A DNA stretch of 64,000 nucleotides, taken from contig JAUKUA010000004.1 in NCBI GenBank assembly GCA_030549175.1, forward strand, positions 1,984,001 to 2,048,000. The letters are read 5' to 3'. The DNA comes from Lasiosphaeris hirsuta. Its lineage: Eukaryota; Ascomycota; Sordariomycetes; Sordariales; Lasiosphaeriaceae. Below the pieces are notes generated by a model. The model ran no database searches and was not told the DNA's origin. It saw only the letters and a list, made by a program, of their open reading frames with translations. Position 1 is the stretch's first letter. Every line of letters begins with the position of its first letter. Shown here one piece after another: positions 7,151-49,943 of this stretch. The position numbers were made by a program, and so were the translations under genes.

Positions 7151-10100
7151 CTACTCCTTGCTCTTGGAGGCAGTCAGATCGAAAATGTCGCCATATAACC
7201 TGACGCGATAGAAGCATGTGTGGTCCGCATTGTGGTTGGTGACGGCCCGGATGATCACGTGGTCCGTCACCGCCTCAACCTTGGACAGTTCAGGGTCGAG
7301 TGGACGAACCAGAATGCCGTCCTTTCTCCGGTCGTACTCGTAGTTGAACTCGTCCAGCTTGATAAAGCCCTTTGCGACGATGAGCTTGTTCTTTTCCCTC
7401 CAGCCATCGGGGTACTTGGCAAAGGCCCAATCGGATAGAAGCTTTTGACGTTCGGGTTCGATGACGCGGGCCCAGACCTCCATCTTCTTGGGCATTGAGC
7501 CCGGATCAATCGTTGCGTCCGGATCGATGTGCTCCACGACAACGTGCTGTGGAATCACCGGATTCGCAAGCTGAATGGACAGGTCGGCAGGGTACCGATC
7601 CTTCCCCCCCAAGATGCCTGCACACCAGCAATTACCAGGCTCGTCCCAGCTGTTCAGCGCGGCATATTTGTCGAGCCGGAACTGCGGCGACTTGACAAAG
7701 GTTTGTCGCCATGGGAACGATCCAACCGATTGCCTAGGCAGCATCCAGGTTGGCGAGGTTAGAGAAACATCCACCATGGCGCCATTGCCAGGGGCAAAAT
7801 GGTTAATGCGACCTCGAAGCTCTTCTGGGTCGAGGCCAGCCTTGCTGACACCGTTCTTGGCGGCGTGCTTGAGTTGCGCGTTTGCGATGGCTTTCTTGAC
7901 AATCTTATCGACCAAGCTCGCGACTTCGTCCTTGGATAGACCCGCGGGCGGCTTTGGGGCTGACTTAACCTTGGAGACCTCGTCAACGAGGGACTTGAGA
8001 GAGCTTTGCAACTTGTCGAACTGGGCGTCCGTTGCTTTTTGGCGTGCCAGCACTTTCTCAAGCTCGCGAACGAAGTCGTCCCTTGTGATCACCGCACCCA
8101 CCGTGGAGAGCTTTTCCTTGATGAGCTTGTCGGTGCTTTCCATGACCCTTTTCTCCAGACCCGGCACGTTTTCGCTGACAAGTTCGGCCACCTTTTTCTT
8201 GTTGCTCTTCAACCAGTTATCCCAGGACTGGGAGCTTGTCTGTCCAGCGGCCATCTGAGGATCACTTTTGAGCCGGGTGAGCAGTGACTTCCATTGGCTG
8301 TCTGAGAGTTTGGATCGATCGTCTAAAGTGAATATCGACTCATCTTTCTGGATCTGATCTTTGATGGCGTGCCAGAAATCCTCGTCGATAACAAGCTTAC
8401 CCGCCCGGTCTCGTTGCACATGCACCAATTGGGGGATGAGCGATGCCAGGTTTTCACGGGCGCTGCTGGTGAGATTCGATGGGTTCGCCAGGAACTCTTT
8501 GAGACTATCGAATTGATCATTCGACATTACGGGGGAAGATGCCTGGCTGATACTGGAGATCAAAGCGAGTAGGAACAGGAGCGCAAGTCCTTTGAGAAGG
8601 TTCCGTAGCGTAAGATGGCGCCAAATCTTGGCATTTGATAGATGGTTATCGTCTTTGTTTTGTGCGGGCTGGGCGCCTGGTCGATGTCGCCGACCTTGCG
8701 AATCGGATTTTGCGGTGACCCGTTGCCTCGCGTCATATCTATCGGCTTCGTCGTCTTCGTCTCTGTCGGCTGACAGCCGGCTGAAGGCAACTCCCGGGTG
8801 GGTGCTAGGCGGGTGTGAATTTCTATAATCTGTCGTCGATGCTTGACGGTGGCTTAGTATCGGTTCTTGACCGAGTTGTGTGGGTTGTTTCGGGGCGGTA
8901 CCTGAATTGGTGGGCTCAGAACGGGAAGCGCGTCCAGGTAGCTGGGAGGATGTGGCCTTTTCCGGGCGGCTTTCGGGGGCAAAGGAAATCGCTCCAGGCC
9001 TTCGACCCCCCGCAGATTGGCCAGGAGGCAAGAGGATAGTCGGGGGGACCAAGCTAGCAGCCCTGCCGCCGGGTATGGGCGGTCTGGTTGCTGGGGGCGG
9101 CAAGGGAGGCTGCGAAGGTAACTCTTGCTGGGGTTTATGGTTTTGTGCATCATTGGGCCGGGGAAGTATGGGGCGGGGTGGACGAGGTGGTGTCGCGGGG
9201 CCGCCGGATCTCCGCGTGTTTTGGAGGGATTCCACTTGGGGGGTTTCAACTTCGGCCTCATTGTAGACGTTGCCCTCCTCGATGAAACTTCGGGCGGAGG
9301 GGGGTAGTCCGCCTACAAATCTTTGTTCCGAGGTATTCGTTGGTGTCGCTATAAGCCGAGCCGAGTGCGAGACCAGAGCCGCTGCTGCTATCGGCCGAGG
9401 CGGTGGTGGCGGCGGAGGGCCGGCAAATTTTGCCCTTTGGGATTGTTCACTTCTTTCTCGGGCAGATTCTTCTGCTTCGGCGTGTCGCTGATCCGCCTGG
9501 CGTCGGGTTTCTGCTGCCCTTTCACGTCTTAGGCGAGCATCTCTTTCGATTCTTTCTCTCTCAGCCTGCGCTTCGGCCTCTTCATCGTCCCGCGCTCTCT
9601 TTCGGGCCTCTCTTTCCGAAGTTTCCCTTTCTCTCTCTGCTCTTACGGACTCCTCCTGTTCGTGTCGATCTCGAATTGCCTCGGCGCGTTTACGGCGAGC
9701 ATCTTCTTGATCTTCCCTCATCAGCCTCCGCCGTCTTGCCTCATCCTCCGCTCTCAGGTCTTGCGATTGGCTATTGGAGGGGGTTAATTCTTTCTGAAGA
9801 TCTACTTGCTGCCGATACAAGTCGGGATCGAGTTGCGACTCTTCGGCTTCTTCTTCCGCAAGTACTTGCTCAGCGATCTTTGCGGCAACTCTGTCCTGAG
9901 CGCGATCAAAATCGTCATCTGCAAGCTCGTCTACTAGCTGAGATGTCTCGTGGGTTGGTTGCGAGGTAGGGGGGGTGTTCTTTTGCGCAGTGCTGGTAGA
10001 TGGCCCTGGGTCCTTGGCACGTCGGCGGGTATCCGCCGCCTTATTGTCCTTTTTTACTCTCTGGAAGATTTGGGCTGCAGCCATAGAGAGGTTGCCGCCG

Positions 10101-16838: not shown

Positions 16839-19800
16839 ATGGCGTCGGTCCCAAGCCCGGATGGCCGCCAGGCCCAGCTCCGACGTCTCGCGGCTGACTG
16901 GGGCGTTGCGGACCCGGCGCCTGTCGCCGTGGCTCCGCTAACACCGAGCCCCCGGTCTTCAAACGACGAATTTCTTGCTGAAGACTTTCTGAAGCGCCGC
17001 CGACTGTCAGAAAATGGGGAGAGGAACTCACAGGGAGGCACTATCAAGCGGGCATTCGGCTCCAGCAGAAAGACTTGGGAGCCCAAGGAGATCTTCGACG
17101 CCCTCGACGCTCACGTCGGCAACTGCGGTGACCCCGGCGTTGCAGATGCCCTCATCGCAAAGCTCCGCCTAGTTGGCGGCGACTTCAACGTCTCAAATGT
17201 GAAGAATAAAACTAGCCTGCTCACTCGGAGGAAAAGCATCGAGTCAATGGAGCGCAGCCGGGTCCTGCAAAAAGCCATACAAAACCGTCAGCCAGACATG
17301 GTCGCTGTCTTAGTTGAACACGCAGACCCTTTCACACTTGATGCAGCGTTGCCCTTTGCCATACGGTCCGGTGATGCAAGAATGCTGCAAATGCTCCTCC
17401 AGCGTGGTGCAAACACTGCTCAGAACCAGGACTCTCAGGACGCCTTCCGCCAAATGTGCATTGTCGGTGGCCAAGCCGACTTGGTGGGCCTTATCTTGCA
17501 ATCGGCAGGAAAGCCCCCGGCACAATGGATATCCATGGCCATGGTGGACGCAGCACGTAAGGGCTGTCTCGACACCGTCCTGAGACTCAGTCGGTCGACT
17601 GCTGACGCCAATTATTCCAACGCCGAGGCACTCAAAACAGCCATCGCTCTGTGCCGGGTCGACATTGCACTTGCCATCCTCACAGGCACCAATCCGCCGA
17701 TCCAAGGCGGCCAGGGTCTGATGGAGAGCTTCTCCGAACTCTTCGAGCACAGAACTATCGGCCCAAACGAGAAGATGGCTTTCACCGAGGCGCTTTTGTG
17801 TGCCGGGGCTTCTGGGGATCAAGTCTCGCTTGCGCTGGCCCATGCTTGCTTTACAGAATTTTACGATATGGTTGATCTTCTTGTGACATATGGAGCCTCC
17901 GTCGAGTTTCAAGACGCCAACGTCCTGCGCCGCGCCATTTCCAATGGGCAAAGTAGTCTGGTTCAACTGCTCCTCAACGAGAAATCGACCCTAAGCCCCG
18001 TATATGCTTCAGAGTGTGTCGGCATAATCCCCAAGTCGATTGCGCCCGAGGACCGCCACGCCATCTTGAGTATATTGTTGCGGAAGGGAGCAAAAGGGAT
18101 ACCGCTACATAACGCGTTGATTTGTGCTGTAGAAGCGTGCGACTTGCAGTCGGTTGACCTCCTTCTCACGCCACAGTTCCCAGGCCAAAGAGCTATCTCC
18201 AGCAGTGATCTTCGGGGCGGCCGTCCAACAGCGATTGACAGACACGAAGTGGCCTCGGTAGACCACAGGAACGGAATGGCCCTAAGTGTTGCGATAGGGA
18301 TGAACTATCTCCCGGCGGTCAAACGGCTCCTGGCCGGGAAGCCGTCCCCAGAAACCCTCGCTCAAGTCTTTTCTCAAGTTTTCATGTTGCCACCTGCGGA
18401 TCGATATCACATGACAGAGCTCCTTCTTGCTGCAGGTCTTTCTGGGTTTGGGGTTTCGGCGGCATTACAGGAAGCTATTGAGGAGCTACCTCCACGACGT
18501 GATGAGAGGTTCATCAGCCTCCTGCTCCGACATAATGCCGATGGGAATTTTAATGACGGTGCTGGAATCCTCTCAGCCATCACCATCAGGGACCTCGGTC
18601 TTTTAGAGACATTACTGAGAAACAGGCCGACCGCTCAAATCACAGCCGCAGCCATGGCCAGAGCCATGATGGTAGAGGATAAGCGCATCAGATTTGGCAT
18701 GGTGAAGTTGTTGGTCAGTGCCGGAGCAGGTCGAGAGGGCCCGGAAGTCTCGCAAGCATTGTTGCAGCTCCTGCCCATCAAGCCAGTCGACGTACCTCTT
18801 GTCTCGTTGCTTGTCGAGCAAGGGCGTGCCGACGCCAATTTTGATCAAGGCGCTCCTGTTGTTCTTGGTACGCTCGTGCCATCCACTTGTTATATTCATC
18901 TGCTGATTCGTCTTAGCCGCCGGAGACCCGGACCCTGCCGTCCTCGAGCTCGTTCTCCAACATGGTAAACCAGATAATCAAAGCTTATCTCGTGGTTTCG
19001 ATGTCATCTGCGAGATCCCCACCACCCCCGCAAAGGCCGCCAAAGTCGATATGATCCTACGTCGCACGAACCAAAAAGAATTACTCAATGCCGCGCTGCA
19101 CAAGGAGGTGCAAACAGTGCTCAAGTCTCCCGTTGAGGCGCGCAACCCTGCCGTTGTCAAGTCTCTTTTGTCAGCAGGCGCCGACGTCAATTCTCACAAG
19201 GCTGCGATGCTCTGCTTTGCTGTGAAGGCTGCTGATGCACAGATGCTCGACTTGATGCTCACAGCGAACCCATCCCCCGCCTCCCTTGCAGCAGCACTTC
19301 CTCACTCACTCAACATAGCCCACCCAAGGGATCGGCTGAGCTTCACTCGGAGGCTAATCGATTCCGGCGCCCCAAGTGCCGAGGCGAATCGAGCGTTGAT
19401 TTATGCGATTACCGCCCACTCCAACGATTATCCATTGATGGAAGCCCTAGCTGCCCATGCTGAATCCACCGATGGCGAAGCCTTGATCTTGGCAGTAGGG
19501 AAAGAGAACCCCAAGATCGTCAACTTGCTGCTTGAGAAAGCTCCGATACGATATCAGGCACCCGTTCTGCAAAGCGTGTTCCAAGAAGCCACAAAGGTCA
19601 AAAGCAAGGAGAAGAGAGTCACAATCTGCCTGCTGCTTCTTCAGAAAGGGGTTGCAGGCCAGATCGTGTCTGACGCCCTCCTTGCGGCTGCCTCGGACGG
19701 GGATTTACCCCTTGGCTCTATTTTGATAGACTACGGAGCAAGCGTGGAGCACCATGATGGCCAGGCCATTGTTGAAGCCTGCGGCGCTGGTGCGCCAGAC

Positions 19801-22434
19801 GTGCTCAAGATGCTCCTCGGTAGTAAGATGGAGATCAAGAAGCAAACCCTCACCAAAGGGTTTCAGGCAGCAACCCAGATCAGTGATCTCGGTAGACGAG
19901 CAGAGGTGTTCCGTCTATTGTTGGATAATGGGGTTGTCGGTGAGGCTGTGGACGCGCAACTCATATCTGCAGCAAAGTTCGGGGAAGATGGAGAGGGGTT
20001 GGTTAGACTACTTCTCCAGTTTGGGGCTGATGTCGACTACAACTCCGGGGAAGCCATCTGGAATGCCACCAGAAGCGCTATCATGGGTAGCCTAAAACCC
20101 CTTCTCGGAATTGAAAAGGTTGGCAAGCGTCAAAGAAGGCCATCTCATGCCACGCTACTTCGAGCGTTGAAGGCAAGTCGGAAGTTGAGCCAGGATCCTC
20201 GGTATCAGGTCATCGAATGGCTTTTTGAGGCTGGATTACCTGCTTCTGAGGAGATTCACATCGCATTGAACAGAGCCGTGAGGGACGATCCAGACCCACG
20301 GCTCATCCGACTACTGCTCAAACACGGGGCTTCGCCGATGGTTAACGGTTGCGAGACTCTAATTGACGCGGCTCAGCTTCTTTCGGCGGATGTCCTGGCG
20401 GTGTTGATCGACTCAGACATTCCTCAGCAAGATATATCATGGACATTCCAGCAAGCCTTTACGCTGGATACTGTGGACACTTGGCTGACAGAGCGAGGCA
20501 TCCTCATCGCAAAGATGCTCATGGAAAGGGGTGCGGCCGGGGAAAGCCTATCCGCGGCTTTGAGCACGGCCATCGACCATTACGGCACAGAAAAGGACTC
20601 GGCAGCTCGGCAACTTGCCCGGCTGCTGCTGCTGCACAAGGCCGATGTCAGCTATCAGGGCGGCCTCGTAGTCCAGAAAGCAGCTGAGCGCGCAGACCCA
20701 GAACTCATTCATCAGATCCTTCAACAAAAGCCCGATTCTCGGGCTGTATCCATGGCGTTCCCATGCCTATTTGACTCGGACCTCTCGGAGGAAGATACCC
20801 TCCGACTTGTTACACTGTTTACCGACTATCACGACGGAGAGGAACGACTCGACGCAATGTTCCAATATCCAGAGTCCAAGCCGGTCATCTTCCGCGCGCT
20901 TGCCAAGTTTCCGCGGTCTTTCAGAATGCTGCAGACCCTCCTTGACGCTGGATACTACCATGATCAACTCACAATGCTACGGGTCATGGATGAGGTTGGT
21001 GAGGATGAGCCTGTCAGCCTTCTGTTTTGGTCACTCTTCCAGCCTCAAAAGAAGGTCAGCAGTGCCATCATCGAGCTGCTCATCGAGCGGGGCGCCAAGG
21101 TCAACTTTGAGACGCGCTTATCTAAAACGACGCCTCTCATGCTGGCGATCCAAGCCAAACGCCTTGATCTCGTAGGTACACTGATCCTCGCCGGGGCCGA
21201 AGTTGATGTAGCGGACATCACGGGAAATACCCCAATGACGATGGCGACCAAAATTGGAGGAGACCTCGGGACTTTGATGATGACGAAGATTTTGGCTGCC
21301 GACCCATCCAAGAACGACGGCTCCTTGCACAACGCCGCGAGGGAGCTAAATCTCAAGACATTGCATGTCCTCATTGACTTTGGGCACGATCTTGACTTCC
21401 CCAGCACACTTCATGGCGGTCGCAGCGCGCTGGGTGAGCTTTGCCTCAATGCCGCCCACGCCGGGCCCCTGTCGCCTACGCAGGAAAAGCAGATGGAAAA
21501 AGTCATGGCACTTCTCATCGAGAAAGGGACTGATCTCACCATACAGTCGGATGGCAAGTCCGTCTTACTTCTTGCACTCAGCTCAGCCGATCCGGTTCCG
21601 ACCACGCGCGCGCTCCTCAAAGTTGGGCTATGGAAATTTGTCAACCGTGTGTGCAACCACTTCACAGATGGCACATACACGTACTCTCCCTCGCAGTTCG
21701 TTGCACGGGTGCTTCCTCCGTCCGACGTTCAATCTGAACTCGGCCAGTTACTCAAGGCCAACCGTGCCACAGACGTCTACTTTGCAAACGATGGCCCGCA
21801 ACCCGAGGGCGCCGTTAACCTCCCAGAGGAACTGCTGCGTGCTGAGCGGGAGCGGCGCGCTCGGGACGAGCGTATTGCCAAAGAGTCGGAAGAGCACATG
21901 ATCGCACTGGCTCGAACCAAAGAGATTGCGCAAATCCAGAACCAAATCTTCCTCTCGCGGGCTGAGCTAGAGGACTCGAGGGCTCGCCGCAAGCTTGAGG
22001 AGGATATCAACGGCATCAGGGAACGCCAGGCGATCGAGGACCAAGGCTTCGCCGCAGAACTGCGACGGCGGAAGGCGGAGCGCGAGGCCGCGATACAGCA
22101 TGAGCAGCAGCTTACCGAGGCGGGTATGATGCGGACCCGGCTCATTGCTGATACGGAGCTGGATTTGGAGAACCGGAAGCAGGAGAGGTTGCTTGGGTGG
22201 GACCACACTCTTAGTGCGCAGAGAGTGGCGAATGCGAAGCAGCTGAGCGCGCTACGGATCAAGGAGAGGGAGGCGATCGAGAAGCTTGATACGGCCAGCG
22301 ACGTGAGGACGGTTAAGAGGATCGAGGAGCATAGGAAGCTCGTCGATAGCCAGAATACGCTCGCGACGAGGCTGGCTGCCGGGGGGATCGACCAGAGGAA
22401 GCAGATTGGGTACATCACTGGCGAACTTGATTGA
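16839..22434 (+). CDS. Giant ankyrin-repeat protein with C-terminal coiled coil
   Basis: Two exons, 16839-18867 and 18917-22434, join in phase 1 across a 49-bp intron and give 1848 residues. Splicing restores VVLAAGDPDPAVLELVLQHG, which continues the repeat pattern, so the two long ORFs are one gene. From about residue 130 to 1560 the protein is built of divergent ankyrin-like helical repeats, seen as recurring LLLxxGA, LLLQRGAN and LLLKHGAS words. About 1650-1840 is a charged Arg/Glu-rich coiled coil. The N-terminus is short, Ser/Pro-rich and has a basic KRRR patch. There is no transmembrane segment or NACHT/ATPase domain. Ankyrin arrays bind proteins; the partner and role are unknown. Confidence 0.85.
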
Positions 22435-23236: not shown

Positions 23237-26200
23237 TTACTTTATTGCAGTAGCTTGTGACAGTTTTGTTGTAATAGCTTGCGACAGCTTCATGACCCTA
23301 TGAAGGTCGAGATTCATCACCACACAACTTGAAGCATCCGAGAGCGCCTTATGATCCCGACCAGACGCCCTTTCCTTCTCGTGCCGCATTTCCGTCGTCG
23401 GCAGTCCCTGGCCGTACTCAAACAACTCATCCCAATATACATGATCCCGGAACCACAATCTCCCGGGCTCGAAGCTCGAGGCCATCTCAGATAAACATTC
23501 CTCGTCTTGTTCCTCCATCGCTGCCAAAATCAACCTGCGTCTTTTTTCGGTCTGCGTATTGCTAGGGGCTCGGTAGATGCGCTCGTACAGGCGGTTTCCT
23601 TTCGCTGATAATCGATTCTCCATTGCCTTGAACACTGTCAAGATTGGCACAGTGGCCGCCGCGTAGCTCAGACTCAACAAGGGAGCATTGGTGCCGCATA
23701 CATCATCCAACAGGTCTATCTTGAGCCCTCGGAGGACCTCTTGGTTAGTCAAACTTCTCGGCTCGCTGACCTGACCAGGAGTGGCTGCGGGGAGCCCGAG
23801 AGTGTCTCTAACTTTATGCACCGTGACTCGACCTTGGGGGAACATCTTATGGAGCGCCTCAAAGACGTTTTCAGTACAAGGTTCAAGGTCCCCGACTGAC
23901 ATTTCATGCAGTTCGGCAACCATTTCGTCAGTGAACCCGTCGGCTTTCATACGCCGAATTAGCTCTGTCTCCTCCAGTTGTGCTGTTCCGTTCGAGTGGC
24001 CAGTAACGTGCCTGGTCTGGGAGAGCCGGATCGTCATGAGAATTGTCCTAATAGGAATGTCGGAATCAGGAATGCGATGTACGTTCCAGCCTGCCTCGCG
24101 ATATAGCCCCAATTGAGATATTTGCTTGAAGAAACGGTTGTGTCTGACAGATAGGGTATCGTGGATGGTACCAGCAGACAACGCGGCAGGTCGGGCCGCG
24201 GCTCGATGCCGTGCTGTAGGGCGAGACACGGGCATGGCTTGGCCAACATGCGCAACAAGGGCTTCGCTGAAACCAGTGGTTGGGACTTTTCCGTCTTTGA
24301 AGAAGCTTTTGTCGAATATACCCTCAATAGTTCCAAGGAGATTAATGGGTTCCTGGATGTATCCCGTTTGCACAAGCATGTTGTGGAGGTGGACAAGATA
24401 GGTGACCTCGGGAATCTTGTCCCAGATCTGCATCCCGAGAAGATAGCCCTGCTCAAGTCCTTCCTGAAGGCCGACGCCGCAGAGGTAAGGCGAGTATTCC
24501 CAGAGTCCGTTTGGGTTTGTATGGGAAAATCGGGAAGGAGGGATACTTGGTAAGCTGAAGGTGGACTTGGAATCGCCAAGCCAGCCACCAAAGCGAAGTT
24601 GAAAATGTTGCATCAAGCTGATCAGGGGTCCGTCATTGCGGTGTCCCAGCTGGCCGGGCCCGCATTGCTGACGGTCCAGCTTCAAGGCGTGCTGGAGGAG
24701 CATGAGCCCTGTGAGAAAACCCCAGTATACCTTTTCCTCTCGGTCTAGAAAAAGGTCGATGTCTCGTTGCGGCTCAAATGCGCTAGCCGGCGGAGACAAG
24801 ACATGACCTCGATGCACATCCACGGACCAGCCCCTCGAAACAGCCAACGAATCCATGATGCACTGGAGCTCAAAGACGTGATGGGGGAGGACTTGACGGC
24901 CGATATCTGTTCCGGGCTTCTGCATGGCAAGAGAAGTGACATGGCTTGCAAATTCGGTCAGACCGAAAAGCCTGCGATCTGTGTCCCACTGCCACGGCCC
25001 CTCCACGGACCCGTCGACGACATCGGAGGAGAACACGTTGACCAGATCGTATAGCCAGTTGATGGCGTACGCTCGGCGCCACTGGAGTCGCTCCTCATCA
25101 GTAGTAGCCTTTTGGAGGTCAAAGTCTGGATCCCAGTTCCTTATTTCCTTCATCATCCGTCGAGTCGGCTTCCCATTACGGTTCTGTTGGAAATCTTTGA
25201 TAAAGTCTAATAGGACATGGTAGGCGTGGATGAGAAATTGCTCCTTGATATCAACAACACTCTCATGGACCTCCTTAGCCTCGCCTAGGAGATGGGGGAT
25301 ACTTATTGCCGTGTAAATGCCCTGCGCGCGGGCCACATCACCGAATGTCAAGGTGTTCATGACGCTTTCGTAAGAATCTTGGCCTGGAATATCAGGGAAC
25401 ATGGCAGCTGCCGCTCGCCGAACCATGGCGACGGCGAGGGTGGAGAGCGTACCAGCCACAGCACTGTTGAGGCCGTCGTATGCAACCTCGCGCCAGGCTT
25501 CCTGAAGTTCGTATCGAAGTTGGCGGCACTCCTTTACAAGGACCAAGGCAGCTAGGAAATCATCCGTCTCTCTGCCTTCCTTGTCTTGGATGATGCGATA
25601 GCTTTCCAGAGGGAGGCCATTGAGGCCAGCCTTGGAAAAAGCTGTAGGCTTTTGTTGCTCCTTGCTCTTTTTGCCGCGCCTGCACTTCTTTCCCTTGTCG
25701 CGCTTCGGCGCCCGCTGTCGTCTGGGTGGAGCAGCTGGGTTTTGATGAGGTTCATCGTCCGACAACCCCTCGCCCCCATCATCTTTCTCCTCCGAGGCAC
25801 TCAGTGCGCTGAATTTGTTGGTGAGGAGGAGCCGGTCGAGATCACTCTTGGCTTTTAGAGCCTCTGCTGCTGGAAAGTGTGCCGAGTTCGAGTTGGCGAC
25901 GGATCCGGCCCATTCCTTTCCGCCTAGGGCTTCGAAGGCAGCTGTCAGAGCATCTATGAATGCTTTGTGTGATGTATTTCTTTTCACCACCTCGGGGTCC
26001 GGATATAGCGCGGCGATTTGTTGGTAGTGGGCATGAAAGGCCGTTCTTGCGTCAATCACGGACTGAAACAAGCGTAGGATTGATGGTGGCGTCACATCCG
26101 CGTGTTGAGCGATGAGTTTAGAAAGAGAGACGAGACCCGATAGTGTAACAGTTCCCGACGTATTAACTGATTTTGGGATCCCATCACCCGAAGATGAGGG

Positions 26201-26302
26201 TTCTGTGCATTCGGTGATAACGGAGTTGGACGCGTTTACAATCCAGTAGATCAGCTGGTTTGTTTCCAGCTTGTAGCTGAGGTACTTGTCAGCCGTCACC
26301 AT
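23237..26302 (-). CDS. DUF6604-type fungal protein
   Basis: Single exon of 1021 residues. The N-terminus reads MVTADKYLSYKLETNQLIYW, the characteristic opening of the fungal DUF6604 domain. It is followed by the long helical N-terminal region with a Lys-rich linker (RRQRAPKRDKGKKCRRGKK) at about 205-230 that is typical of the family. The C-terminal 700 residues are largely helical and carry no catalytic motif I recognise. The start at 26302 was chosen because the domain begins exactly there; the in-frame ATG at 26491 adds only low-complexity residues. Function is unknown. The last 20 residues contain a short imperfect duplication (KLSQAITT / KLSQATAI) mirrored in the DNA. Confidence 0.8.
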   Translation of the reverse strand: MVTADKYLSYKLETNQLIYWIVNASNSVITECTEPSSSGDGIPKSVNTSGTVTLSGLVSLSKLIAQHADVTPPSILRLFQSVIDARTAFHAHYQQIAALYPDPEVVKRNTSHKAFIDALTAAFEALGGKEWAGSVANSNSAHFPAAEALKAKSDLDRLLLTNKFSALSASEEKDDGGEGLSDDEPHQNPAAPPRRQRAPKRDKGKKCRRGKKSKEQQKPTAFSKAGLNGLPLESYRIIQDKEGRETDDFLAALVLVKECRQLRYELQEAWREVAYDGLNSAVAGTLSTLAVAMVRRAAAAMFPDIPGQDSYESVMNTLTFGDVARAQGIYTAISIPHLLGEAKEVHESVVDIKEQFLIHAYHVLLDFIKDFQQNRNGKPTRRMMKEIRNWDPDFDLQKATTDEERLQWRRAYAINWLYDLVNVFSSDVVDGSVEGPWQWDTDRRLFGLTEFASHVTSLAMQKPGTDIGRQVLPHHVFELQCIMDSLAVSRGWSVDVHRGHVLSPPASAFEPQRDIDLFLDREEKVYWGFLTGLMLLQHALKLDRQQCGPGQLGHRNDGPLISLMQHFQLRFGGWLGDSKSTFSLPSIPPSRFSHTNPNGLWEYSPYLCGVGLQEGLEQGYLLGMQIWDKIPEVTYLVHLHNMLVQTGYIQEPINLLGTIEGIFDKSFFKDGKVPTTGFSEALVAHVGQAMPVSRPTARHRAAARPAALSAGTIHDTLSVRHNRFFKQISQLGLYREAGWNVHRIPDSDIPIRTILMTIRLSQTRHVTGHSNGTAQLEETELIRRMKADGFTDEMVAELHEMSVGDLEPCTENVFEALHKMFPQGRVTVHKVRDTLGLPAATPGQVSEPRSLTNQEVLRGLKIDLLDDVCGTNAPLLSLSYAAATVPILTVFKAMENRLSAKGNRLYERIYRAPSNTQTEKRRRLILAAMEEQDEECLSEMASSFEPGRLWFRDHVYWDELFEYGQGLPTTEMRHEKERASGRDHKALSDASSCVVMNLDLHRVMKLSQAITTKLSQATAIK

Positions 26303-27080
26303 GATGCCCTTGGCAAAATGGACCAAAGGGGTGCGATGGGATTTTGAAGGGAAATTGGGGTTGCAGGCATGTAAAGGCGAATAATGGGCGGCCGATGAAA
26401 GAAGTGAGTTGAAGATCCTGGCTGGCGGCGGAAAATAATGGGGAGTAAAGCTGTGCTGCCGTGGAAGTGTGGCGGAAGGAAAATGCATCATGGATAGCTT
26501 CCACGGACAGAACCGATGTAGTATCGGAGCAATAAGGTACCTGAGGGACGCGTCCCTTCGTCACTCTGGAATTTTCAAGGCGTCAAAACTTTTCGCGAAA
26601 CAATTTGATTACCTACTAACTATCAAAATAGCGCGCGCTAGCGTGAACTTGCTCCAGAAGCCACCGGTGTTGGTATTGCCCACCGAATAGAACTGGGCTC
26701 AGGAGACTGGCTTGAACAAGACCGCTACATGTATCTCTGCCTACCTGCCTTATTGATTGCACCTGTTCGACCGAGATTGACTGACTCGATCAGCTAATTG
26801 CGTGGTAACCATTGCATACCTTATCTAGGGTGTAGCTATGAGAGGAGGATGGCAATGCTGGACTAATTAGTACAAGTTTTATTGCCATTACTGATGGGCA
26901 CCGTCCTCATCCCGGAGGCATAAAAGATTGCTTAATCTGCTGAACTGGATGAACATGGATAAAACATATTTAGAGGTGAAAGCCGAAAGACTTTATTGAA
27001 ACTAATAAATTATGGGGCTATCGATCGGCCTTTTTCCATTTGGTGTTGCTGCGGTTTGGGACACTGGCGACGTGTTAGAA
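26303..27080. other. Intergenic region, no gene seen
   Basis: About 0.8 kb. The proximal part should be the DUF6604 promoter. AT content rises at 26580-27000. No coding ORF or repeat was recognised. Confidence 0.45.
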
Positions 27081-42029: not shown

Positions 42030-42245
42030 GCAGTACGCCAGATAGCGTGTATGTGCGAATAATTACGCTGTTGCCGCCATTGGAGTTGCTTTATCTGGCT
42101 CATAGGCTCCTGGACACTCTTTTTCCTAGTCCGATCCCAAGTATCTCTCGCAGACCCGGTACAAGCTGAGTTCGGGGCCATCGCGAAGGACACTGGTGGC
42201 AGGTAGGATATCCTCGTGAGTAATCAATTGATGTCGGGCGGCCCG
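42030..42245 (-). pseudogene. Truncated relic of the membrane gene at 44156-45373
   Basis: Two blocks match the intact gene by eye. About 42036-42110 resembles 44122-44205 (CGAATAATTA-GCTG-TACCGCC-TTGGAGTTGCT and AGCTCCTGGACACTC). About 42140-42245 resembles 45100-45215 (CATCGCGAAGGACACTGG-GGCA-GTAGGATATCCTCGTGAGTAAT). Nearly 0.9 kb of the gene between the blocks is missing, so only the two ends of the matching stretch survive. It directly abuts the methyltransferase 3' end. Confidence 0.7.
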
Positions 42246-42329
42246 AATAGAATTGGCGGAAGGACGGGGGCACGCTTCCATGAGAGACATGGTAGTGACG
42301 CATTCCCTGACACTTTCGCAGCCCCTGGA

Positions 42330-42889
42330 CTAGGAGCCGATATAGGGCGTATCGTAGGGTGCAGCCCCCTGGGATCTCACGTGGGATGACCCAGCAGTCG
42401 ACCTCACACTTGGGATCTTTGATCTTGGTCTTTTCGCTGATTTCCCAGCTGCCACCGGCAATCGCATGGCTCTACTTGGTCGGGAGATAGTAGAGTATAC
42501 AATGTCAACCGTCTCGTCAACTTTGTTGTCGGACATGGCGGGCGCCTCGGCGACCTGAAGGAGATCGGGATACCTTCGCCACGCGGACAGGACGATGTTC
42601 GACACTTCGTGATGAAACCAGCTGGCGGCGTCTGACTCTGAAGCCATCCGCCAGCTGCGCGCGTTGGGCGGGGAGGCTCTCTCTCTCAACCGCAACTCAT
42701 CGTCACCGTACAGAGGGAGGAACGAGGACTCGGCATCGAACTCCGCCGACACAAACCCGTCACGTTGAACTTGGGTGCGGAAGCGAAAGTTGGAGATGGG
42801 TGGGTATTTGTCCTGCCAGCTTTTGAGGGAGGTGGTGTAGTACCGGCTTCGGGAAAGTATAAATCCGCCAAGCTCGGGCTCCTAGGCAC
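42330..42889 (-). pseudogene. Frameshifted fragment of an unknown fungal gene
   Basis: Reading leftward, 42889 onward gives MPRSPSLADLYFPEAGT and then, after a frame change near 42747, AEFDAESSFLPLYGDDE and ESDAASWFHHEVSNIVLSAW. The second part resembles the N-terminal half of an uncharacterised fungal family with a WFHNEVSN-like motif and VDIVYS ending. The frame closes at 42330 without the expected C-terminal part. It diverges from the kinase-like pseudogene at 42963, as if the two once shared a promoter. Confidence 0.5.
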
Positions 42890-42962
42890 GACCCGAACGA
42901 CCCATCAATTTTAGCGCGCCCCCGGCACGGCCACGGCGACTCTAAAACGGCCCGACACAGCC

Positions 42963-43710
42963 ATGGCCGAGACACAAAACTTCCCGTGCCAGGTATGAAA
43001 AGAGACTGGTGATTTAACACAAGATTACAATTCGCCTAGGTTCAGCTTGGCTTCCGCACCATTTCCGGAACTGGCCTGTTCATCGTCCCGGATCGCCATC
43101 ACGTCCTACCAACCACACTCTTTTCGACAATGCCGTCCATTGGCTCGCGAGCTGGCTTCCTTCGTTGGCCCAGCCATGGCTCAAAGCTTGGATTCCCACC
43201 CTGCTTCTCCCCCGTACCGTTGTCCTCGAGAAACTAAAACCGGGCTGGAACGCGCAATCTGACTAAGAGAAGAAAATATACCAACAGTGGAAGCCCCTGC
43301 AAGGACGTGTTATCCCGGTCTATTACGGGGGGAGTACGTGTGATGGGCGACGTGCGATCGTTCTTTTCGATGCTAGCGGAGTCGATCTCTACTCGGAGAA
43401 GTTCGGATCCGTCACCAAGTCGGCAGTCAAGGAGAAGCTCCAGCTTACCATCAGGGCCATCCTCGAGCTGGGCGTCGAGCCGGCGGACCATAGTCCTAGG
43501 AACTATCGCATCGTCGGGGACGCAGCATTCGTTGTCGACTTTGAGGGTACGGCCGAGGTCGACCCAGAACAGGTCGAAGAGCTCACCGACGCGGTTGCTG
43601 ATAGCGTCGCGCATTGGGCCGCCTTCTACCAGAAGCATAGCGCAGCTCAGGCGACACGGCATGGCCATCAAGCCGCAACCCTGGCTGGGTTCTCGAATCC
43701 CCCGACCTAG
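42963..43710 (+). pseudogene. Broken protein-kinase-like gene
   Basis: A 30-bp first exon (MAETQNFPCQ) and a GT..AG intron (42993-43039) lead into VQLGFRTISGTGLFIVP. A one-base frameshift in a T run near 43113 is needed to continue as FDNAVHWLASWLPSLAQPWL and EKLKPGWNAQSD. A TAA at 43264 then interrupts the frame, which continues as KKIYQQWKPLQGRVIPVYYG, AIVLFDASGVDLYSEKFG and ELGVEPADHSPRNYRIVGD. These match the hinge and the HxDxxxRN-like loop of small kinase-like/APH-like fungal proteins, with DHSPRNYRI in the catalytic-loop position and VVDFEG as a DFG-like motif. Two lesions make it a pseudogene. Confidence 0.65.
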
Positions 43711-43784
43711 ACAAACCCCACCTCTCGACCTCATACGCCGCGTTTCCCCGCCGTGTCGTCCAAGAACACCGTCTCGCCACGACA

Positions 43785-44110
43785 TAATACAAGGCAGATT
43801 CCCCGTCTCTCAGGAGCTGAAGAAATCGCGAGGGGAAGAAATTACCGACGTGTTTCATACCAGGCTTTTCTATATGAAGAGAGTGAATAGGTAATGTGTC
43901 GGGAAGCCGGGATGCCGAGAAAAACGACAGTAACTGACTAATAATGAAATGGCCAGTGAAGAAGGCGGAAACGCTCAACTCGCTTGTGTTTCAGGACAGG
44001 CACTTGAAAGTGTTTCTAGCGGCATCACTCGGTAGATTATCTTGGGTTCGAGTGTAAGATTGGAGATGAACTCCGAATCCAGCAGAGTAAGCCGCGTCGC
44101 TTGAAGGGTC
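43785..44110 (+). pseudogene. Truncated relic of the protease-like gene at 45888-49943
   Basis: Aligns by eye with 48050-48940. First, TCTCAGGAGCTGAAGAAATC matches the segment near 48083-48105. Then, after about 0.6 kb missing, CTTTCTATATGAAG-type sequence and an exon-3 match follow (VKKAETLNSLVFQDRHLKVF against the intact VKNAESLDSLVFQDGYLRVF). The copy then has a TAA in place of a codon within the intact FECKV region. It ends right where the intact unit's homology begins (about 44115). Confidence 0.7.
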
Positions 44111-44155
44111 CTATAGTACGATGGATAGCGTGCCCGCGCACGAATAATTATGCTG

Positions 44156-45373
44156 CTACCGCCCTTGGAGTTGCTGAACTAAGTCGATAAGCTCCTGGAC
44201 ACTCATGGTAATGGTGTCGCCCCCATTGGTAGAAACAGGGTCCTTCCAGGCTTTCCAGGCAACCCATGCTTGGAAGGCGGCTAGGCCAAGGCTCAGTATG
44301 CCCACGACAATGGTGATCAAAAGCGCAGCCAGCGCGACGGCAAAGGCATTGCTTTCGGATTTTTGCCACTGCATCCAGCGCTCGAACTTGTTTCGCGGTG
44401 GAGGATTGAGAACAAAATCATGTAGGACTGCGAGCCGCTCTCCCCAGTACAGGTACTCGAGATCTTTTGCGTCGTCGGAGGTTTTGTAGCCATCGGAATT
44501 GGTACAATCCTCGTCAAACCCGGCTTTGGCGATGAGGCGCTCTAGAATAGAGGTCGACTTATCATCATCAAAGTTGAAAAGTATTGCCAGGATGGAATGA
44601 AGCGTCTCGACAATCAGACGGGCTGGAAGGCAGCCGCTGGTGGCAGAGTGAGCGGTCCGACGACCATGGTCATAAGAGGCCGGGTGGAGCTATTACCTTT
44701 GGAGACAGGAGAGTAAATCATCCTCCTTTTTAGGACCTCTCTCCTGCAAACGGTTCAGGTGCGCTTTGAGGAATGCGGTATAGTGGAAAATATATAGGGT
44801 TGGGCCATCCGGATGCAGGGGATCTAAATGCAGGTGGCGAGAGAGGTTGTCAGTGCCCCTGAAGGATAGATGAAACCTGGCTTTGAGCTTCCAGGCCTTC
44901 ATGGCTTTTTGCTTTTCCATGGCCCTTTTCACAGAGGCGGATACACCGAGAGATTTGGGGAGGCATTTGGAGACAAAATCAACAAAGCGCTCCTCCGGCT
45001 GCCAGCTGAAAGAGTCGCCTTGGCCAGCACAGTCTAACATCAGCATGGCCCGAGTAGACGCAAGAATCCTCAGTTTCAGCTGCTGGGCGGATTGCTTTTT
45101 GCCCAGCTTGGTCCCGAGTTTCTTGCAGGCCTGGTCCAAGGTGAGCTCGGGTCCATCGCGAAGGACACTGGCGGCAAGTAGGATATCCTCGTGAGTAATT
45201 GGTGTCGGGTCGATTGATTCGGGCTCCTCAACCTGCACGATATATGCATCGCCGCGGGCGAGCAGAGCATCGATCACCCTGAAGTACGACGCTAGCGGTT
45301 GCGTGGTTGTGCCGAGCAGCTCGGCTGCGATTTGGGCGCGGTAATCCGGTTCGTCTCGCGTTCCTCGTTCCAT
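44156..45373 (-). CDS. Uncharacterised fungal protein with C-terminal membrane anchor
   Basis: Two exons on the minus strand, 45373-44697 and 44636-44156, join in phase 2 across a 60-bp intron and give 385 residues. Residues 1-225 are soluble and helical (ITHEDILLAASVLRDGPEL, LRILASTRAMLMLDCAG). The second exon starts with the widely conserved fungal segment GCLPARLIVETLHSILAILF. A strong transmembrane helix (FAVALAALLITIVVGILSLG) lies near 325-350, preceded by YWGERLAVLHDF and followed by a short Gln/Asp-rich tail. Domain order matches a large unannotated fungal family. The start at 45373 is preferred over 45514, because the upstream codons cover a tandem repeat. It is divergent from the protease-like gene 515 bp away, and both have a decayed copy next door. 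Confidence 0.75.
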
Positions 45374-45390
45374 TGCTTGTGGGCACTCGG

Positions 45391-45434
45391 GATGAAATGT
45401 GATGGCATGAAATGTGATGGGATGAAGTGGGAAC
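45391..45434 (+). repeat. Short tandem repeat, 15-bp unit x3
   Basis: GATGAAATGTGATGG is followed by CATGAAATGTGATGG and a third, diverged copy. It lies in the leader just upstream of the membrane gene's chosen ATG. Confidence 0.7.
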
Positions 45435-45887
45435 AGAAGGGGGCACCTGCGCAGTTTGATCTGGCTGCCTTGGAGAAGTCCCATGGGACTTGGGCTTGTA
45501 CACAGGCCGGGCAACGCGTGGATGGGGGTGCTTCCTGACGTGCATAGTGCATTCCAAGTTCCAGCTCTTCACCTCCATGAAAAAGCCACCACCCGCAGCC
45601 ACCACCAGCTGGATGGCTATGCTGCCCAGAGCCTTGTCTGAGGGGTATCATGTTTTCCGCTTTGCACTCTTCACCTCTCGGCGCTTCTCAGCTCTGCCCA
45701 TGTTGGAAACACGCCCGCTTGGAAACATCATGTCACATTCTAAACGCGGCACCATTCCGATCCCTGATTGATGCGCTGCGAATGGCCGCCGTATCCTCCT
45801 CCCCCTCTGGCAACACCGCGCGACGCGTGCGCTCAGGCAAAAACAGCTCTCCTCGATGCCAGGACATCCGCATTTTCGATATCTCAA

Positions 45888-48800
45888 ATGGGCGTTCGGA
45901 CGCAGACTCTCAGTCTGAATCCTGGCGGGTCATCTCCCCGCGATGACTCGCAAAAGGATCAAGCTACCGCACTGTCCAAGTCGAGTGTGCCACAGCCCTC
46001 GTCTCCCGTACCTCCTCCCAACGAGGGCCGCGGCCAGAGTCGCTACCAAGACCAAGACCGCGACGGCGGCGGCGGCGGGAGCGATACCGAAGCCGAGCCG
46101 TCAACCGCCGCCTCAACTGCTCCCGAGACTGTGCCACAGGAAGTTTGGCACTATAGCGTCCCCGTTCCCGGGAGCAAGAAGAACAAGCTCATATATATCA
46201 AAGCCCCATTCGAGCTCAGACCTTGGACGACGGAGCAGTGGCAAGCACGCTTTGTCTTTGTGAAGAATCAGCTCGAAGACCTAGTGTACAAGTATCTACG
46301 CCTCCTGGACTTTGAGAAGCGCCCAGCCTACCACCCCCGTATGGTTGGAACATGTCCTTCGGATGCCCGTCCGAGCGTCGTCATCATCTGTCGGGAGGCC
46401 GATGCCAAGCATATTCAATCTCTCTTCCGCACGAGAGCTGAGGAGAAACTATGCCTCCAAGGAAGAGAGTCGGCCTGGTCGCAATTTCGCTCGTCCTTCG
46501 GTACCGGGCAACGCGAAGCTCAAAGCGAGCAGGCTATCCCTCGTCTTCAGTTGGTATACTATCGGACTCGGACACCAGTTGATCGCCGTGCTCATGGTGA
46601 CACTCTCTTGGCTTACCCTGGTCGAAACGGTCCTTCTTCCGGTGGTATCGTCCGTTTCCGCGACGCGTCGGCTACATTGGGGATTGCCATCGACATTGGA
46701 AATGCCAAGGTAGCCATGCTTACAGTTGACCATCTGTTCTCGACAAAGCAAGAACGCAGTTTGAAGTCATTATCACTCGGCAGCAACGAGTTTCCCCCAA
46801 CCTCGGACCGCCCAAGCACTTCCCCTTCGTTAACTGGTGATTCCAATCTGAGCGGGTCAGGCGAGAACAGTCTGTGGGAAGATGACGACGAGTATGAAGA
46901 TTTGGATACTGATGAGCTCATCCCGCCTGATTTGAACATAGCTGAGCCCGGCGCACCCCATGCACCAGAACAGCCTCAAAGGAACTTCGACACGCAGTCC
47001 CAGGCTCTTGGCGACCCGCCAGAGACATGGGAAAGAGTAGAGCCCCCAGACAAACTCAAACCGTCCGCTCCGTACCTGGACTGGGCTCTGGCGCTTCCTA
47101 CATCTCTATATACACCACACCTTTCTCTCGTGCAGGCCAATACCGTGTTCCCGGGCGGCCCGGGGAGCGAGGCCATCCTGCTTGTGTCGTGTCAAGAAAA
47201 CCCACCTAGCAACCTAGCAGCAGTATACATGGTCTCGGGGGTTCGAGGGATTGTCCGGGGTAGCATTCTCGCAGCATCCAGCTTTATTCCCTCTTTCCCC
47301 GGCCAGGAGGCCTGCGAGGTGTGGACCGTTATTTTGGACGTATCTGATGGTAAGGGTCTCACTACCTAATTTCTTCAGTCTCGATCGCGCTCTGTACTCA
47401 CGCCTCACAGGTCTTCTCAGCGGCGAATGTGGCGCAATCGTTGTTGATAAGGAAAACAATAAAGTGTACGGCCATGTTGTGGGAAGCGACCCCTTCGGAC
47501 ACGCTTATGTCGTTCCATTGATCCATACCCTCGATCAGGTAGCGGTTTGCTTTGGCATGGCGGCCATATACCGCCCTTCCCGTGACACGGCCCAGAGGGC
47601 TATGAACCAGCAGTCTGACCCCCCCACAGTCTCGGAAGGAGGTCCATTTCGAGGCCCTCGAGGGAGTCTCGAAGTCTCTAGCTCCGAGTTTGCTGTATTC
47701 GGGGATCCAGTAGAAAACACAGTTACGCGGCTCGGAAACACACCCGGGTCCGAAGCAGTAACCACTTCGCTATCTGAATCGGGCATTCATCAGGAAAGCG
47801 ACATTGAGCTAAACTACGGTTTGAGCTTTGGTAGCAAAAGTTCATGGATGACGAATCTAACCGAGGCTATCAATCGGAAACAAGCTGAGGAAAAAGAGGA
47901 AGCAGGCGGTGTGTCAAATCAAGCCGAAAAAGACTACGGGAAGACGTCTGAGCCAAGGCGGAAACTCTTAGACGCCGCCAGTGGAGCAGCGTCCAAGAGC
48001 ACCATCCCGCCACCGCAAAAGGCGCCAGCTAGGGAAGAGACCAGATTCTCTCTCTCTCGGGAGCTGAAAATGTCCCACTCTTCTCAGGAGCCGAAAAAAC
48101 CGCGAGGGGTAGAAAGCGCCTCCGACATGCGTTATGCCAGCGCGAAGCAGAACAAGGAGTCCAGCCGCTTTGCGCCCGGGGTCACTCCCACTATCGAGGG
48201 TATCATGCAGCCACCCCCGTCTATAGAGAAGGAATTGATTGCCCGAGGAGGCTATGGGTTATCCCAATTCACAGACACCCTGACGAATACTACAGAGATG
48301 ATGTCTGGGGGTTCAAAGACCCTGGGCAGTATATCATTACCATCAGCACGTCCGAAAGAACACCATAACCCCAAAGCGCCAGAGGTTCCTTGGTTCCAGG
48401 CTTTAGGTGTTCGGCCCCATATTTCCCAAGACGTGAAGTACGTTTCCAAGGCAATAGAGTCCACCGGGGAGGGAGCACCTGAGCCTTCCGCCACAACGGT
48501 CGCGCAGCCGCAACATATCTCCAATAGAAAAAAGCTTAAAGACTTTAGGCAAAAGAATGAGGCTCAAAAGAGTACCCCTCTACGACGGGCACTTTCCGGG
48601 TGGGCGACGAAGAAAGCGCTCGGTGGGCAGAAAAAAGGAGATGACCAACTCCCCAACAACCCACCTCTACTTGGGAGTCCTCAGGATGTACCCCCACCAA
48701 AAGAAATCTTTCTGTATGAAGGGTGAGTAATACGGCAGAGAACTGGAACTGTTGTGCCGAGAACAGCAATAGTAACTGGCTAACAATTAAAAGACCAGTG

Positions 48801-49943
48801 AAGAACGCGGAATCGCTCGACTCGCTAGTGTTTCAAGACGGATACTTGAGGGTGTTCCTGGCGGCATCACAAGATTATCTTAGGTTTGAGTGCAAGGTTG
48901 GGGATGAGCTCCGAATCCAGCAGAGTAAGCTGCCTCGATTTGTTACCCGTGGATATGGTTTCGGAAAGGGCTAATGTGAGGGTGGACAGTCAACACAAAA
49001 GGCGCGCAATTTGTTCCCGTGTACGCTTACCAAGACGTGCGGTTCCCCAACGTCGTTTACGTCGATGGTGTGGGGAATAAAACTTCAAGAAGCTCAAAGG
49101 AAGCCATCTATCGCTTTGACGCACTCCAGGGTAAGTCTACCAGTATTTTGCAAGGCAGGGATTAATGTGTCGTTAAAACAGGAACATCAACAGAATTATT
49201 CGACTTTCAGCATAAACTTACATCAGAAAAAGTCGATCTCGATATCTCGAGTGTCAAGTTGCTCAAGCTAACTAGGAATTTGAAATGGGAGTCAAGGCTG
49301 GAATACTATGATAATGTGCGGCTCCAAATCTTGAAAGGGGAAAATCCAACATCAACGAGACTGGGTGTGTTGCCGGCGCCGGCGGCCAGCACCGCCGTGC
49401 CGGGGTTATCCGCTGGGGGGCCAGCGTATAAGGCCTCGAGGTTGGTTATGTATTTGGGCCGGGTGGGAGAGTACATCACGATACCGAGTAAGTTATGGCC
49501 AGGTACATCGCAATCATGGTTGATGCTGACGCCTATTGCGATGCTAGTTGATGAAAGTGTCGAGTTAGACACCACGAGGGAAACGACGGCCCGTCTGGTC
49601 ACAAAAGTACCTATGATGAGTCCATTCCCAGGGATAAGGCTCACTAACCCGGGCACCGTCCCGACATCCAATGTCTGGAAGACATTTACGATTAAGTTTG
49701 AGGATGCAGCATGTAGGTTTGACCTCGCTACTTTGGTCTTTTACGCTAATATTCCAACTTCAAATGCTAGGTCAAAATTCTTTCATACAGAGGTGGATGG
49801 CTGCCAAGCAGAACAGGGCTGCCACCAAGGTGGCGGAGGTCGTCAGCGACACAGGATCGGCATCCACGGCGGCGAAGCTCAAGGGGACGAACAAGCACTT
49901 AAACAGCGGAGGTAACCTTCACGGCATGGATGGGGGGCCCTGA
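45888..49943 (+). CDS. Large protein with chymotrypsin-like Cys-protease-like core
   Basis: Seven exons (45888-47349, 47411-48722, 48794-48924, 48990-49130, 49182-49487, 49548-49712, 49771-49943) give 1229 residues with consistent phases. ATLGIAIDIG and LTVDHLFS (His282) resemble the strand and TAAH-like histidine of chymotrypsin-fold proteases. GLLSGECGAIVVD (Cys494) sits where GDSG normally holds the nucleophile serine, followed by VYGHVVGSDPFGHAYVVPL, as in the substrate-pocket strands. An acidic, disordered insert (EDDDEYEDLDTDE) separates the two, and a long disordered Ser/Lys-rich linker follows. The C-terminal 350 residues form a separate unknown domain (SLVFQDGYLRVFLAAS, KFEDAACQNSFIQRW). 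Protease activity is inference. An alternative in-frame ATG lies at 45771. Confidence 0.75.

Follow-up and report, generated by a model that had tools for sequence, protein, structure and literature searches.

A decayed partial tandem copy beside a recurring protease-like and membrane-protein gene pair in Lasiosphaeris hirsuta

Fungal gasdermin genes are reported to adjoin a gene for a protein with a protease domain in more than 80% of cases, and many of those proteins also carry WD40, ANK or TPR repeats (PMC12881547). Here we analyse a stretch of 64,000 nucleotides of the Lasiosphaeris hirsuta genome (the window; contig C9, positions 1984001-2048000), in which a divergent pair of genes, one encoding a putative membrane protein and the other a protease-like protein, stands immediately to the right of a decayed copy of part of itself. 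The duplication by itself is ordinary, and the recurring gene pair is less so: in several Sordariomycetes, genes for a predicted protease module with exchangeable C-terminal tails appear to be linked to those of a membrane-protein family. As an explanation of the whole, a duplicated and decayed copy beside a recurring sensor-and-executioner pair seems to us the best, at a confidence just short of even.

The intact genes are those of the right-hand copy:

44156-45373, minus strand: membrane gene, complement(44156..44636,44697..45373), 385 amino acids, one intron, open
45374-45770: spacer of 397 bases between the divergent start codons
45771-49943, plus strand: protease-like gene, 1268 amino acids predicted, seven exons (45771-47349, 47411-48722, 48794-48924, 48990-49130, 49182-49487, 49548-49712, 49771-49943), six GT-AG introns

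The product of the membrane gene is 100% identical to the Lasiosphaeris hirsuta database protein P0001. It is mainly helical in a structure model (predicted local distance difference test, pLDDT, 84.6), and its hydropathy indicates a C-terminal hydrophobic helix at residues ~320-357. The protease-like protein is laid out as a protease module (~120-600), a linker that looks to be of low complexity, and a C-terminal module (~963-1268), which we refer to as the tail.

When the window is compared with itself by BLASTN, 42032-44102 aligns with 44115-48940 in four collinear blocks, all plus/plus, with identities of 77-88%:

42032-42119, matching 44115-44204 (77%, E 2e-9): 3' end of the membrane gene, its last codons and the spacer downstream
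42146-42238, matching 45121-45209 (85%, E 2e-22): middle of the membrane gene, residues ~59-88
43808-43841, matching 48082-48115 (88%, E 2e-4): fragment of protease exon 2
43913-44102, matching 48755-48940 (82%, E 7e-47): intron 2, exon 3 and the start of intron 3, frame-shifted

Under gentler BLASTN scoring some of the blocks grow longer and a fifth, weak block appears at ~43757-43821 (E 0.002). Identity between left and right is 77% over 495 aligned columns. The best bit score is 185, to be compared with at most 37.4 in 100 Markov-resampled right units (dinucleotide frequencies preserved on average), 23.8 for the reverse complement of the right unit, and at most 32.8 for 10 other window stretches of equal size. 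A DNA search of 42030-44110 against the whole genome (44.4 Mb in 14 contigs; here and below, genome searches score the best candidates only) returns the query itself and three of the blocks, and no further DNA match elsewhere in the genome, in a search that passes over very common words. The region 42032-44102 is a decayed partial copy of 44115-48940 on the same strand, and a tandem duplication at the locus is almost certain. The original prediction, that sequences of both genes recur to the left in the same order and orientation and that the right copy is intact, is confirmed by the four blocks and by the two open gene models; the self-comparison it proposed gives collinear diagonals on the same strand.

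The geometry of the junction bears on how the copy came about:

44103-44115: duplication junction, where the end of the left copy (in intron 3) is joined to the start of the right copy, with ~12 unmatched bases

The right unit starts at 44115, directly after the left unit, as had been anticipated. The left homology starts at 42032, which is the base opposite 44115, the first base of the right unit, and the junction 44114/44115 falls in intron 3 of the left protease copy. One end of the duplicated segment (44115) lies 41 bases beyond the stop codon of the membrane gene, and the other (near 48945) lies inside protease intron 3 (48925-48989). Judging from the junction, the simplest history is a single head-to-tail duplication of ~4.8 kb, from the 3' flank of the membrane gene to protease intron 3. 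If 44115 and a base near 48945 were the ends of a single segment duplicated in this way, the left start and the junction would have to coincide as observed. Because the junction is in intron 3, the left protease copy was probably truncated from birth and without exons 4-7 from the outset; the left membrane copy would have been complete when formed. The idea that the pair was duplicated as a unit therefore stands as to the tandem duplication, but the duplicated unit covers protease exons 1-3 only, not the whole pair. An alternative history starts from two full pairs in tandem, from which a later deletion took exons 4-7 of the left protease copy along with the sequence 3' of the right membrane gene. 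Other large losses in the left copy speak for such a deletion, but it would have had to hit by chance the position that matches the left homology start (42032, opposite 44115), and we regard this history as very improbable.

Decay has since gone far in the left copy, which has lost ~0.9 kb of membrane-gene sequence (from 44205) and ~0.6 kb of exon 2 of the protease gene (from 48116). The exon 3 remnant is frame-shifted (a 4-base length difference, split into two frames by tblastn), and unrelated sequence of ~1.5 kb stands in place of the 2.9 kb at 45210-48081. A left copy decayed by large internal deletions had been proposed; the decay, the large losses and the frame shift agree with this, but the middle (42239 to ~43756-43807) is unrelated sequence and not mere deletion. 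We see no sign of repeat-induced point mutation (RIP): there is no excess of C-to-T or G-to-A changes (G>A 20, A>G 16, T>C 13, C>T 13, counted from right to left whichever way the changes ran), and the composite index is negative in all eight stretches for which it was computed. The interior of the left unit has features of its own:

42239-43807: unrelated middle of the left unit, replacing 45210-48081; its last 50 bases weakly match the right unit
42333-42881, minus strand: gene remnant with relatives at C1:2656119-2656497, nuclease-like by eye only
43018-43707, plus strand: kinase-like gene remnant with an in-frame stop at 43264, divergent from 42333-42881

No second DNA copy of this middle was found in the genome. 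The frame at 42333-42881 has no Pfam match, so the nuclease label is without family support. For the kinase-like remnant, 43018-43263 by itself has no Pfam match, and 43267-43707 has protein-level relatives at C8:2302791 and C1:2655041, of which the C8 relative matches Pkinase weakly, under the Pfam cut-off (E 0.0022). Relatives of both remnant frames adjoin each other divergently at C1:2655041-2656497, where the frames are interrupted by stops too, so that the left unit contains what appear to be the remains of another divergent gene pair.

Nine loci of the L. hirsuta genome were found to carry all or part of the protease module, C1:562597 with the N-terminal part only. At four of the nine it adjoins a gene of the membrane family, divergently in the window, on C7 and on C12, and with both genes on one strand on C11. 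Sequence thus shows members of the two families as direct neighbours at these four loci. Elsewhere, at least five of 25 protease-module proteins appear to share a contig with one of 37 membrane-family proteins, as deduced from equal size of the longest contig and from locus tags rather than from contig sequence. These putative linked pairs come from Monosporascus, Dactylonectria, two Apiospora and one further source, and three of the five have consecutive locus tags. The protein counts are lower bounds, the single-protein searches and the profile search having scored ~8,000 candidates each. The membrane-family alignment (A2) has 29 of the 37 proteins as rows, the shorter P0029-P0033 and P0035-P0037 being left out; hydropathy was computed on all 37. 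Linkage of the two families looks real but not obligatory.

The protease module is predicted to be a trypsin-fold protease on the basis of its catalytic triad and of a fold model. In the structure model of the homologue P0038 it takes the form of a double beta-barrel of trypsin type (PA clan), and the module is NAL1-like, with 12% identity to rice NARROW LEAF 1. The triad was counted in the 14 rows of alignment A1 (13 homologues, P0039 and P0047 included, and the window protein; P0048 is outside A1). His and Asp are present in all 14, and the nucleophile is Cys in eight, Ser in four, Phe in one and Pro in one; in the window protein the triad is His-Asp-Cys.

The tails differ from one member to the next. 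Pfam families were scanned in the window protein and in L032, the L029 fragment, L040-L042, L044, P0038, P0040, P0041, P0043-P0046 and P0049-P0052. Above the Pfam cut-off, the homologue tails include protein kinase, ankyrin, TPR, nucleoside phosphorylase and DUF6590; amongst the module loci of L. hirsuta, one has an F-box above the cut-off, one only weak coiled-coil matches and one no family. We also observe that in L040 (C1:563986-568236) the F-box (E 9.7e-5) is downstream of a protease-module frame, and that this locus is ~2.5-3 kb from L042, which has the N-terminal part of the module only. Two of the tails are similar to genes that stand alone in the L. hirsuta genome. Over three matches, with the breaks between them at or near exon ends of the window gene, the window tail shares 40-53% identity with a stand-alone gene region on C10. 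The C7 tail (residues 587-876 of the L032 frame) shares 64% and 61% identity with frames on C8 and C1 (L038 and L039), neither of which shows a protease module within the sequence examined. We read the likeness of the C7 tail to these frames as a sign of putative domain capture.

Gene-pair units would arise and decay locally, as at the window locus. The suggestion that this is a birth-and-death locus, of the kind known for defence or allorecognition genes, is plausible, given that similar pairs recur with differing C-terminal domains. Amongst possible functions we rank likeliest, by analogy and only tentatively, a sensor-protease paired with a membrane executioner. The C-terminal tail would serve as bait or scaffold, and a molecule bound by it would switch on the His-Asp-Cys/Ser protease; the active protease would cleave or release the membrane-anchored partner, which would damage membranes, killing or walling off the hyphal cell. 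A narrower proposal, to which we give rather little weight, is that a NAL1-like Cys/Ser protease with a host-derived decoy tail senses tampering with a host protein and activates a tail-anchored membrane executioner. The decoy idea comes from the resemblance of two tails to stand-alone genes. With similarly low confidence, the decoy reading would make the pair a counterpart of the HET-Q2/gasdermin clusters that works without a gasdermin, and the locus one such unit duplicated and dying. Should the pair prove to be a sensor and executioner, the fungal cell-death repertoire would gain one more protease fold and a partner whose type is not recognised, and the stand-alone proteins that the tails resemble would become candidate guarded host proteins.

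Several observations weigh against a recurring sensor-and-executioner pair. Five of the nine protease-module loci lack a membrane-family neighbour within the flanks covered (~5 kb at C9:4.55 Mb and ~1.5 kb at the other four), and four of the eight membrane-family loci are unpaired in theirs (one with a ~1.5 kb flank only), so that the module is found by itself as well. The four linked loci out of nine are not a blind sample, the C12 pair having been reached first via its membrane gene and only later, weakly, by the protease query (E 0.001). The zinc-finger (C2H2) matches in the tails of P0045 and the C7 paralogue are under the Pfam cut-off. The C7 tail is also 39-47% identical to four further places in the genome; it therefore belongs to a wider zinc-finger family, and the decoy proposal becomes slightly less likely. 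P0046 and P0049 carry Phe or Pro as nucleophile, and a fourteenth homologue, P0048, is without the stretch holding the His; these three are either inactive members or wrong gene models. No Pfam protease family matches the window protein (E up to 1) or the scanned homologues and paralogues (E up to 0.1), the predicted seven-exon model has no full-length database match (the best is 49%), and no pore-forming fold was recognised for the membrane protein. The missing partners would suit an explanation in which the two genes recur together only through shared regulation or neutral linkage, with nothing more at the locus than an ordinary tandem duplication. Linkage appears, however, to be retained in Monosporascus, Dactylonectria and Apiospora, and it is also found at diverged paralogous loci, on C11 in a different orientation. 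We consider it probable that the two genes form a functional unit, and we doubt that linkage is only regulatory or neutral.

Another possible function for the protease is that of a signalling endoprotease in stress or nutrient responses, comparable to SltB or Ssy5, with the membrane protein as its receptor, anchor or substrate and no role in cell death or non-self recognition; we rank this second and hold it to be unlikely, if worth keeping in view. In its favour, fungal SltB combines a predicted pseudokinase with a predicted trypsin-like domain and signals to a zinc-finger factor, as described in PMC4557415, and kinase and zinc-finger-like tails are present in the window protease family too. 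But the kinase part of SltB is N-terminal to its protease part in the same description, the window protein and the scanned homologues and paralogues have no match to S64 (PF08192), and several differing copies in one genome together with ANK, TPR, PNP and F-box tails fit receptor families better. No description of the recurring gene pair or of the proposed decoy-based conflict system was found amongst the open-licence papers that the literature searches listed.

Two groups of neighbouring frames are recorded here for completeness. Within the window, two large ankyrin-repeat frames and a DUF6604 frame are grouped at 16839-18965, 19051-22431 and 23240-26491. Beside the C7 pair, L032 (C7:3200000-3209900) has a long frame at 7888-9900 on the minus strand that by eye resembles a portion of a HET-type protein and has no Pfam match.

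The locus can be set against four described systems. Like the gasdermin and HET-Q2-like (Q2L) clusters, it has a protease gene next to the gene of a putatively membrane-acting partner, and the proteases of those clusters are likewise fused to further domains, WD40, ANK, TPR or kinase-like (PMC12881547 and PMC10197012). It differs in that the module here is modelled with a trypsin fold (PA clan) in place of S8 subtilisin or CHAT, and in that the model of the partner consists mainly of helices, with a hydrophobic one at the C-terminal end; the partner was not recognised as a gasdermin. With fungal nucleotide-binding oligomerization domain (NOD)-like receptors it shares exchangeable domains, Pkinase and PNP_UDP included, and those receptors are described as evolving by birth and death (PMC4986451); unlike them, the window protein and the scanned homologues and paralogues have no match to NACHT or NB-ARC. 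The likeness to SltB is in the presence of a trypsin-like domain and a pseudokinase in one chain, with a zinc-finger protein in the pathway (PMC4557415); the difference from SltB and Ssy5 lies in the missing PF08192 match in the proteins scanned and, for SltB, in the order of the domains, the kinase being C-terminal in the present family. From NAL1 of rice the fungal family differs by an identity of 12% and by Cys as its commonest nucleophile, and the tails and the membrane partner belong to the fungal family.

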